DNA of 47,800 bases, from contig JAEUPH010000029.1 of assembly GCA_016790395.1 (NCBI GenBank), positions 1-47,800 of the forward strand, given 5' to 3'. Position numbers and translations under genes: made by a program. Origin of the DNA: Rubrivivax sp. Its GTDB lineage: Bacteria > Pseudomonadota > Gammaproteobacteria > Burkholderiales > Burkholderiaceae_C. The first letter of the stretch is position 1, and each line of letters begins with the position of its first letter. Under the pieces are notes generated by a model, which was given only the letters and a program-made list of their open reading frames with translations, did not search any database and was not told the DNA's origin. Positions 30,128 through 33,655 of this stretch are shown here, piece after piece.

Positions 30128-30182
30128 CTCGGCTAGACTTCCCGCTTCTGCAACGCACAAGGACGAGAAAGGCAGCCTGGTT

Positions 30183-30233
30183 ATGACACCGCGGACTACG
30201 CCCTTTTCCTTTGCCGAGGTCACCCTGACCTGA
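30183..30233 (+). CDS. Threonine-rich leader peptide of the thrS attenuator (candidate)
   Basis: A 16-codon open frame reading M-T-P-R-T-T-P-F-S-F-A-E-V-T-L-T, with five Thr codons: one ACA, an adjacent ACT ACG pair, and two ACC near the end. GAAAGG (30167-30172) lies 10 bases before its ATG, a reasonable ribosome-binding site. Its stop (30231-30233) abuts the antiterminator strand at 30235. It has no likely function as a protein; the predicted role is to sense charged tRNA-Thr by ribosome stalling and control read-through into thrS. I recognise no published leader of this kind for thrS in betaproteobacteria. Confidence 0.72.
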   Translation: MTPRTTPFSFAEVTLT

Positions 30234-30300
30234 CGGCCGCGCTGTCATGCCTGCCAAGGCACCCTTTTTCCAGACAGAAGCGCGGCCACCCCCGCGCTTC
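30185..30300 (+). promoter_or_regulatory. Candidate ribosome-mediated transcription attenuator of thrS
   Basis: Four strands with mutually exclusive pairings. Strand 1 (30185-30194, GACACCGCGG, inside the leader peptide) pairs with strand 2 (30237-30246, CCGCGCTGTC) at 9 of 10 positions. Strand 2 (30235-30243, GGCCGCGCT) pairs perfectly with strand 3 (30279-30287, AGCGCGGCC), extended by 30244-30246 with 30273-30275 across a bulge. Strand 3 (30277-30285) pairs perfectly with strand 4 (30292-30300), the terminator. A ribosome stalled at the Thr pair (codons 5-6) would cover strand 1 and free strand 2 to block the terminator; one reaching the stop would cover strand 2 and allow termination. Confidence 0.72.
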
Positions 30301-30308
30301 TTTCGTTT
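30277..30308 (+). terminator. Attenuator terminator hairpin before thrS
   Basis: GAAGCGCGG (30277-30285) and CCGCGCTTC (30292-30300) form a perfect 9-bp stem with a 6-base loop, followed by TTTCGTTT (30301-30308), six T in eight. It lies immediately upstream of the thrS GGAGG (30310-30314), so it is placed to stop transcription before thrS rather than end the patatin transcript only. Confidence 0.8.
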
Positions 30309-30320
30309 CGGAGGTCCGAC

Positions 30321-32228
30321 ATGATCCACATCACGCTCCCCGACGGCTCGTGCCGTGAGTTCCCGGGTCCGGTCACGGTGGCCGAGGTGGCCGCCGGCAT
30401 CGGCGCCGGTCTGGCCAAGGCCGCGCTGGCCGGCAAGGTCGACGGCAAGCTCGTCGACACGAGTTTCTCCATCGCGCAGGACGCGCAACTGGCCATCGTC
30501 ACGGACAAGGACGCCGACGGGCTGGAGATCATCCGCCACAGCACGGCGCACCTGCTGGCCTACGCGGTCAAGGAGCTGTTCCCCGAGGCCCAGGTGACCA
30601 TCGGCCCGGTGGTGGAGAACGGCTTCTACTACGACTTCGCCTACAAGCGGCCCTTCACGCCGGAAGACCTGGCGGCCATCGAGAAGCGCATGGGCGAGCT
30701 GGCCGCGAAGAACGAGCCCGTGGTGCGCCGCGTGCTGCCGCGCGACGAGGCCGTGGCCTACTTCAAGGGCCTGGGCGAGCACTACAAGGCCGAGATCATC
30801 GGCAGCATCCCGCCCGGCGAGGACGTGAGCCTGTACCGCGAAGGCGGCTTCGAGGACCTCTGCCGCGGCCCCCACGTGCCCAGCACGGGGCGCCTGAAGC
30901 ACTTCAAGCTGATGAAGGTGGCCGGGGCCTACTGGCGCGGCGACCAGGCCAACGAGCAGCTGCAGCGCATCTACGGTACGGCCTGGGCTACGAAGGAGGC
31001 CCTGCAGCAGTACCTGACGATGCTGGAAGAGGCGGAGAAGCGCGACCACCGCAAGCTCGGCCGCGAACTCGACCTCTTCCACCTGGACGAGCACAGTCCC
31101 GGCACGGTGTTCTGGCACCCCAAGGGCTGGACGTTGTGGCAGGAGGTGGAGCAGTACATGCGCCGCGTCTACCGCGACAACGGCTACCAGGAGGTCAAGG
31201 GGCCGCAGATCCTGGACCAGGGTCTGTGGGAGAAGACGGGCCACTGGGACAAGTACCGCGAGAACATGTTCGTCACGGAGTCGGAAAAGCGCAGCTACGC
31301 GCTCAAGCCGATGAACTGTCCCGGCCACATCCTGATCTTCAAGCAGGGCATCAAGAGCTACCGTGACCTGCCGCTGCGCTACGGCGAGTTCGGCAACTGC
31401 CACCGCAACGAACCGACGGGAGGCCTGCACGGCATCATGCGCGTGCGCGCCTTCACGCAGGACGACGGCCACATCTTCTGCACGGAAGACCAGATCCAGG
31501 CCGAAGTCACGGCCTTCACGGCGCTGCTGCAGAAGGTCTACCAGGACTTCGGCTTCACGGACATCATCTACAAGCTCTCCACGCGGCCCGAGAAGCGCAT
31601 CGGCACGGACGAGAGCTGGGACAAGGCCGAGGCCGCCCTGGCCGAGGGTCTGCGCGCCTCGGGCTGCGACTTCGAGTACCTGCCTGGCGAGGGCGCCTTC
31701 TACGGCCCGAAGATCGAGTACACGCTCAAGGACGCACTCGGCCGCCCCTGGCAGTGCGGCACCATCCAGGTCGACCCCAACCTGCCCGAGCGTCTGGGCG
31801 CGGAGTACGTGGCCGAGGACAGCGCGCGCAAGCACCCGGTCATCCTGCACCGTGCCATCGTCGGCAGCCTGGAGCGCTTCATCGGCATCCTCATCGAGCA
31901 GCACGCCGGCGCGCTGCCCGTCTGGCTGGCGCCACAGCAGGTGGTGGTGGCCTCGATCACGGAATCGCAGGGCGACTACGCGACGGAGGTGGCGAAAACG
32001 CTGCAAAAACAAGGAGTTAGGGCGCAGGCGGATTTGCGGAACGAGAAAATCAGCTATAAAATCCGCGAGCATTCGTTGCAGAAGGTCCCGTTCATCCTGG
32101 TCGTCGGCGACAAGGAGAAGGCAGGCGGGGCCGTTGCCGTGCGCGCCCGCGGGGGCCAGGATCTCGGTGTCATGCCGCTCAGCAGCTTCCAGGCGAAGAT
32201 TGCCAGCGACATCGCCACCAGAACCTGA
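30321..32228 (+). CDS. thrS: Threonyl-tRNA synthetase
   Basis: A 635-residue class II synthetase charging tRNA-Thr. Domains: TGS (1-60, [20 protein letters not shown]), N2 editing domain with [10 protein letters not shown] and [10 protein letters not shown] supplying the HxxxH/CxxxH cluster that removes mischarged Ser, catalytic core with motif 1 region, the zinc Cys in PMNCPGHI, motif 2 ([23 protein letters not shown]), motif 3 ([17 protein letters not shown]), and the anticodon-binding domain ([35 protein letters not shown]). GGAGG is six bases before ATG 30321. The leader suggests control by threonyl-tRNA. Codons around 32000-32065 are unusually AT-rich, probably owing to an internal promoter for infC. 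Confidence 0.97.
32033..32062 (+). promoter_or_regulatory. Possible internal promoter for infC within thrS
   Basis: TATAAA (32055-32060) and TTTGCG (32033-32038) are separated by 16 bases, inside an AT-rich patch (about 31995-32065) of coding sequence with several AAA, GGA, GTT and AGG codons rare elsewhere in this window. In E. coli, infC-rplT promoters also lie within thrS, so the position is suggestive. The -35 match is weak. Confidence 0.4.
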
Positions 32229-32298
32229 GCGTCCGCAGGCGCGTTGTCGTCTTTATCGTGGCCCGATCTGCCTTCGGGTTGCATCAGGAGCTGGAACC

Positions 32299-32850
32299 AT
32301 CGCTACCTTCATGGACCGCCGCGTGCCCAACGCGGAGCGCAAACACCGGTTGAACCGGGAGATCATGGCACCGCAGGTGCGGCTCAACGGAGTCGAGAAC
32401 GAGCCCCTGGGCATCGTCTCCACGATGGAAGCGCTTCGCATGGCCGGGGAACTGGACGTCGATCTGGTCGAGATCGCAGCCACCGCAGACCCCCCCGTGT
32501 GCCGGCTCATGGACTACGGCAAGTTCAAGTACCAGGAGCAGAAGAAGGCGGCCGAGGCCAAGGCCAAGCAGAAGGTCATCGAGGTCAAGGAAGTGAAGTT
32601 CCGGCCTGGCACGGACGACGGCGACTACGCGATCAAGATGCGCAACCTGCGTCGATTCATCGCGGAAGACGGCGACAAGGGCAAGGTCACGCTGCGCTTC
32701 CGAGGCCGCGAGATCACGCACCAGGACATCGGAATGCGCATGCTGGAACGCATCCGCGATGAATTGGCCGATGTCGCGATGGTGGAACACATGCCCAAGC
32801 TCGAAGGGCGCCAGATGATCATGGTGCTGGCGCCCAAGCGGAAGCAGTAG
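32299..32850 (+). CDS. infC: Translation initiation factor IF-3, ATC start
   Basis: A 183-residue IF-3. The N-terminal domain begins [26 protein letters not shown], continues through [29 protein letters not shown], and the C-terminal domain spans [28 protein letters not shown] to [16 protein letters not shown]. The start is taken as ATC at 32299, because AGGAG (32286-32290) lies eight bases before it; the first in-frame ATG (32311) is 20 bases from that site. A rare start codon is expected: IF-3 discriminates against non-canonical starts and autoregulates its own translation (AUU in E. coli). It lies 70 bases after thrS. Confidence 0.93.
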
Positions 32851-33560: not shown

Positions 33561-33610
33561 TGATCCGCCGACGGTGGCCCTCGTGGGCAGCCGAAGGCTC
33601 AAGCCCTCGA

Positions 33611-33639
33611 AGGCCGTCACCTGAGGACGGCCTTTTTTT
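33611..33639 (+). terminator. Intrinsic terminator between rplT and pheS
   Basis: AGGCCGTC (33611-33618) and GACGGCCT (33626-33633) form a perfect 8-bp stem with a 7-base loop, running into seven T (33633-33639). It lies 17 bases before the pheS ATG. It may end the ribosomal-protein transcript or act as a partial read-through point; I found no Phe-rich leader before it as in E. coli pheM. Confidence 0.85.
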
Positions 33640-33655
33640 CGTCTTTTCTCCCGAC

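Follow-up and report, generated by a model that had tools for sequence, protein, structure and literature searches.

The enterobacterial attenuators of thr, his, leu, trp and pheST consist of a leader open reading frame (ORF) with codons for the cognate amino acid, alternative helices and an intrinsic terminator placed before the structural gene. Two unrelated RNA devices control thrS, the gene for threonyl-tRNA synthetase. In E. coli the synthetase binds an operator that acts on translation, with neither a leader ORF nor a terminator involved, and in Firmicutes control is exerted by the T-box, a terminator/antiterminator switch that senses tRNA charging by binding the tRNA directly, without translation. 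The thrS leaders of Firmicutes are described as T-boxes in PMC2494555, and share their target gene with the element considered here. The nearest likeness that we have found is the uORFC-8-2 motif located 5' of cysS in Rhodobacterales, a cognate-codon leader ORF preceding an aminoacyl-tRNA synthetase gene with a terminator at its 3' end; it differs in belonging to the alphaproteobacteria and in its tandem Cys codons, most often the 14th and 15th of the ORF, and the passages of PMC8632094 on this motif mention no start-codon box.

Here we analyze a 47,800-nucleotide stretch of Rubrivivax sp. DNA (the window) in which thrS (30321-32228, forward strand, 635 aa; NCBIfam TIGR00418, 726.5 bits with a cut-off of 383.65) follows a threonine-containing leader. 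As in the enterobacterial systems, codons for the cognate amino acid in a leader ORF are found together with predicted alternative helices and a predicted intrinsic terminator; unlike in those systems, the gene is thrS of Burkholderiales, the control codons 2 and 5 come right after the start, and an 18-nt box is nearly invariant. We give a probability of roughly 0.86 to the reading of the element as a transcription attenuator, mediated by the ribosome, that controls thrS and probably also the genes 3' of it, and a shortage of charged threonine tRNA would very likely be what switches thrS on. Rfam models at gathering scores (cmscan) matched only tRNAs, and no T-box, in the window and 15 related loci. 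We judge this probable threonine attenuator of thrS to be genuine and widely conserved, new as far as our searches show, and of a known attenuator class. A leader-peptide attenuator in Burkholderiales would be a third solution to the control of this gene, next to the T-box of Firmicutes and the operator of E. coli. An initial sequence-only reading of the window knew of no such attenuator for betaproteobacterial thrS, and the literature searched, including passages of PMC8632094, PMC2965389, PMC3766115, PMC4833913 and PMC2494555, likewise yielded none for this group; an earlier prediction is possible, for example in the 2010 survey by Lopatovskaya that is cited in PMC4833913.

Leader, helices and proposed mechanism in the window

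The leader ORF, MTPRTTPFSFAEVTLT, extends over 30183-30233 of the forward strand, on which all of the features below are located, and is made up of 16 sense codons and a TGA stop. Its five Thr codons, 2, 5, 6, 14 and 16, including the ACT ACG pair at codons 5 and 6 (30195-30200) to which we assign the control function, are read exactly where the sequence-only reading had placed them. The ribosome-binding site proposed for the leader is also found, GAGAAAGG at 30165-30172, the 125 leader-bearing loci being conserved at columns -15 to -12, and 30134, given initially as the start of the element, is where a -10-like promoter hexamer, TAGACT (30134-30139), begins. Comparable hexamers are found in 62 of 71 window-type loci (a set picked by locus number, for which the shuffled expectation is 4%), within -75 to -28 of the leader ATG and in most cases around -50. 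No -35 element was found, and a sigma-70 consensus scan of 601 bases of the region returned no promoter.

Strand 1 (30185-30194, GACACCGCGG) lies within the leader and ends directly before the Thr pair, and strand 2 (30235-30246) begins directly after the leader stop, which ends at 30233, confirming the spacing that had been pointed out from the letters. Both of the mutually exclusive pairings described at that time are present: an antiterminator of 9 perfect base pairs between 30235-30243 (GGCCGCGCT) and strand 3, 30279-30287 (AGCGCGGCC), that excludes the terminator, and a pairing of strand 1 with 30237-30246 (CCGCGCTGTC), the 1:2 helix, that matches at 9 of 10 positions with a single C-C mismatch and would exclude the antiterminator. 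Strands 3 and 4 form the predicted intrinsic terminator (30276-30301) between leader and structural gene, ending 20 nt 5' of the thrS ATG. Its stem was described as 9 bp and is in fact 10 bp (30276-30285 with 30292-30301), and the T-rich tail that had been claimed is weak in this species, with a longest run of 3; runs of at least 5 are seen in 108 of 122 leader-bearing loci. Two terminator-like sites were detected over 601 bases, where shuffled sequences average 0.4, and the fold of 30150-30320 has an energy of -68.4 kcal/mol as compared with -51.8 (sd 4.2) in 200 shuffles, z = -3.98.

In the mechanism that we infer, including its transcription start, stalling, termination and response to threonine, transcripts would begin near 30146 and the ribosome would meet Thr codons 2, 5 and 6 among the first codons of the leader. 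With charged threonine tRNA plentiful it would proceed to the leader stop and cover strand 2, the terminator would form, and transcription would end before thrS. With charged threonine tRNA scarce it would stall at the early Thr codons and mask strand 1, leaving strand 2 to pair with strand 3, so that no terminator would form and thrS would be transcribed. When the leader is not translated, strand 2 may be captured in the 1:2 helix, which would permit termination.

Threonine codons and leader frame among relatives

Two sets of thrS loci were compared: a genus set, for which the best 30 loci were used from 60 same-genus genomes including that of the window, and a named set, the best 80 of 585 thrS loci from a named collection. 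Given this selection the 109 loci in which the start of thrS could be read are close thrS relatives, and the two sets may share species. The 109 exclude L001, which duplicates L003, as well as L002 and L084, whose pieces contain no thrS start; L058 (decayed, ITPRI) and L064 (wrong register) were dropped afterwards, which left 75 loci. The 125 leader-bearing loci comprise 75 that were not picked by the start-codon box discussed below and 50 that were. L047, L072 and L101, which are without an ungapped terminator, are absent from the duplex, position, 1:2-energy and folding analyses (n = 122) and also from the +11 A/G and cross-clade tests, and L026 and L077 were left out of alignment A3.

A short Thr-rich ORF precedes thrS in 72 of the 109 loci, as against 1 on the opposite strand. 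Counted from codon 6 on over the 125 leaders, which vary between 10 and 22 codons in length, Thr makes up 237 of 1055 codons in frame, as against 10 and 30, each out of 930, off frame. By this comparison the leader is probably read as protein, and the short ORF with cognate codons that characterizes attenuators is found here as a conserved ORF with frame-specific Thr codons. The positional frequencies refine the sequence-only reading as to which codons could act as the recurring sensor, namely 2 and 5 and often 6: Thr is present at codon 2 in 124, at codon 5 in 125 and at codon 6 in 84 of the 125 leaders, and the late codons are rare in relatives, with Thr at codon 14 in 3 of the 35 leaders that long and at codon 16 in 2 of 19. 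The recurrence of both leader and Thr codons leaves the proposal of an attenuator standing. No codon-position bias of substitutions was detected in the variable part of the leader among close pairs (79, 61, 72), a result that sits poorly with a simple picture, as do the leaders with only two Thr codons described below.

Diverged leaders are found in Ralstonia (MIQAPRTTTASERQ), Achromobacter (MFFPPARTTTRNFRPMSR), Bordetella (MISRPTRTTTGNFRPMSR and MSPNYARTTTSSPR) and Pandoraea (MIARTFTVVKVRR). Among 60 more regions 5' of thrS, drawn from 48 families, 12 contain a Thr-rich ORF, where the opposite strand yields 0 and shuffles predict 0.7, with MFKRTTTTRISR, MAVRTTTTHP and MQLNRTTTTS as examples; one of the 12 (f33) is a reading frame of a tRNA. 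No such leader was found by the Thr-rich-ORF criterion in the other 48 regions.

Loci in which only a hairpin is visible raise the question of whether the element is an ordinary terminator of an upstream transcript, from tRNA-Val or some other gene, next to a chance ORF, with thrS expressed by read-through. Several families do show tRNA-Val, a short hairpin and thrS without a visible leader, an arrangement that such a terminator would account for. We consider it very improbable nonetheless, as box, Thr codons and ORF are all conserved and as the -10-like element of window-type loci is a conserved feature between the upstream gene and the leader. Upstream of the leader in the window itself, the ORF at 29054-30127 matches no NCBIfam family.

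Several observations on these upstream regions deserve mention in their own right. In seven loci (L021, L033, L036, L037, L065, L073 and L103) a GC-rich terminator-like hairpin lies directly 5' of thrS with no box and, by eye, no visible Thr leader; these may have lost the leader and retained the terminator. Nine of 12 scanned loci (L144, L155, L159, L131, L112, L115, L176, L188 and L211) have a tRNA-Val (GAC) gene a short distance 5' of the leader or hairpin of thrS, and in L188 and L211 tRNA-Val, short hairpin and thrS follow in close succession, with the leader not visible. The terminator of the attenuator may have descended from a tRNA terminator.

Base pairing and modeled folding

An ungapped terminator hairpin is present in 122 of the 125 leader-bearing loci. 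Over an alignment of 32 relatives 93.1% of its cells are paired, with 12 two-sided changes, a number reached in 0 of 500 shuffles, a control that ignores relatedness. For the antiterminator the corresponding value is 84.4% paired, with slid controls at 27-47%, and for the 1:2 helix 85.4%, with slid controls at 13-60%; in these 32 relatives the antiterminator shows 2 two-sided changes, no better than shuffles, and the 1:2 helix shows 0. Covarying stems in relatives had been proposed as a check, and by these alignments covariation supports the terminator only, and neither the antiterminator nor the 1:2 helix. The terminator itself and the position of the antiterminator do recur, as the attenuator proposal requires of its pairings.

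The prevalence of this hairpin also bears on the suggestion that thrS is controlled translationally as in E. coli, by a synthetase-bound operator near the start codon. The regulated gene is the same, feedback control of thrS would be common to both, and an autogenous loop would suit it; there, control is protein-bound and translational. With a terminator hairpin ahead of thrS in nearly every leader-bearing locus, and a Thr leader before it, we find such an explanation scarcely credible, the least probable of those weighed here.

In transcription attenuation the antiterminator must preclude the terminator and strand 2 must lie at the leader stop, an arrangement that complementarity and position bear out here and covariation does not support. 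The midpoint of the best partner for strand 3 falls between -5 and +15 of the leader stop in 79.5% of loci, compared with 36% in shuffles. After dereplication by shared 6-mers, the partner is at -10 to +20 in 85.5% of the 55 leaders retained versus 52%, and 43 of the 55 beat more than half of their own shuffles (sign test, p = 3e-5). Ranked among dinucleotide shuffles, the 2:3 duplex has a median rank of 11/100, with 33% of loci within the best 5, and the 1:2 duplex a median rank of 24/100, with 14% within the best 5. Pairing between strands 1 and 2 uses differing parts of the box in different groups, which were set by hand, and is weaker in some of them, with 1:2 energies of -17.2 for the group of the window, -11.3 for Oxalobacteraceae-like loci and -9.9 for CGTT-type loci. 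A comparison across clades of self and swapped antiterminator energies (p = 0.0016) was rejected as compositional, since a reversed-sequence control gave p = 0.002, and an A/G switch at +11 showed a tendency only when set against strand-2 5-mers. Separately, the terminator loop of L128, L129 and L135 repeats the CTAG of strand 2, so that in Oxalobacteraceae-like loci the antiterminator is able to reach into that loop.

In order to model the ribosome-dependent choice of helices we folded each RNA as it stands ahead of strand 4 synthesis and scored how much of strand 3 the antiterminator occupies (n = 122), with a 5' end upstream of the likely start and then with three 5' ends and a second footprint. 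With the 5' end at ATG-37 the mean antiterminator share is 0.59 with the ribosome at Thr5, 0.18 with the ribosome at the stop and 0.35 with none, and the difference exceeds 0.3 in the expected direction in 78 of the 122 loci and in the opposite direction in none. Stalling at the early Thr codons, as modeled, favors the antiterminator. Placing the ribosome at random from codon 9 up to strand 3 was as effective a block as placing it at the stop (means of 0.178 and 0.154); the share was lower for the stop in 59 of 122 loci (p = 0.50). For the window at ATG-37 the shares are 0.78 (Thr5), 0.14 (stop) and 0.75 (no ribosome), this last value leaving the state without translation not clearly repressed. 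With the 5' end at ATG-42 the window share is at most 0.09 in every state, and with ATG-24 the stop state still has 0.56, so that the outcome for the window depends on the assumed 5' end.

The start-codon box and the genes behind thrS

A near-invariant box, GGTTATGACACCGCGGAC (30179-30196), spans the start codon of the leader. Allowing at most one mismatch to GGTTATGACACCGCG[A/G]AC, it is found 5' of thrS in 75 of the 109 loci including the window (29 of 30 genus and 46 of 79 named loci), 73 of them with zero mismatches, and loci outside the 75 have at least 3. Named carriers include Acidovorax, Comamonas, Rhodoferax, Roseateles and Piscinibacter, as well as Methylibium, Massilia, Janthinobacterium, Undibacterium and Paraburkholderia. 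Order-wide, matches with at most one mismatch occur in 53 of 399 genomes, as against 5 for a reversed control pattern; 50 of the 52 box loci besides the window lie 113-280 nt 5' of thrS and span nine of 51 labelled families, and in the other two (L149 and L163) the box is present with no thrS seen within the piece examined. In the wider class outside the order 6 of 365 genomes match, all with one mismatch, fewer than the 16 obtained with the control pattern, so that the box is, as sampled, confined to Burkholderiales. Judged by these counts, the same box and architecture recur 5' of thrS across the order above chance. The exact box occurs once in the genome of the window (an assembly of 353 contigs, 75% complete).

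The box is constant base for base around the start codon and the rest of the leader varies: positions -3 to +9, +12 and +13, three of them outside the coding sequence and two of them third positions, in ACA and CCG, are identical in 124 or 125 of the 125 loci, the conservation in the 50 picked by the box not being independent. This invariance is left unexplained by the classical attenuation model. A small hairpin, UGGU[UAUGAC]ACCG (30178-30191), could speculatively form with the leader AUG in its loop; its outer pair is possible in 97 of 111 GG-type boxes, G is found at -5 in 14 of 14 CG-type boxes, and it is weak, approximately -1.8 kcal/mol. By eye, a role of the box as promoter and of GGU/CGU as anticodon mimic were both considered and dropped.

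The box could be a recognition element, bound by threonyl-tRNA synthetase or by another protein or RNA, that gates translation of the leader, with the Thr codons as a secondary input. Invariance that extends to the three bases before the ATG and to synonymous third positions would be expected of such an element, the possible hairpin around the AUG could serve it, and the use of strand 1 varies by group and the box does not, the 1:2 energies being weaker outside the group of the window. In addition, only two Thr codons are present in 22 of the 125 leaders, including 13 of 18 from families f35, f39 and f47. We regard this reading as unlikely, however, as the Thr codons past the box keep strongly to the leader frame, as the diverged leaders MFKRTTTTRISR and MQLNRTTTTS retain Thr codons without it, and as the start-codon hairpin is very weak. 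Attenuation by stalling at the Thr codons is the reading that we prefer, and within it a tentative and rather doubtful extension, somewhat less improbable than the recognition element just described, is that the box GTTATGACACCGCGAAC is a sensor in its own right, either a fixed element for stalling at initiation or early elongation or a site to which the synthetase or some other factor binds, with the attenuator reading two inputs. If so, attenuation here would take a variant form anchored at the start codon, with each base of the box maintained through much of the order Burkholderiales.

In the window thrS is followed 3' by infC, rplT, pheS and pheT (NCBIfam), with an ORF between infC and rplT that we take to be an rpmI-like sequence. 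If these genes are co-transcribed with thrS, initiation factor 3 and ribosomal proteins could be adjusted to the supply of threonine. Between rplT and pheS there is a terminator-like hairpin, AAGGCCGTC..GACGGCCTTTTTTTT (33609-33646), before which no Phe-rich leader was seen by eye. At infC (32286-32313) the spacing of an AGGAG site fits an ATC codon at 32299 and not the ATG at 32311, which suggests a non-canonical start; infC of E. coli has a non-canonical start.
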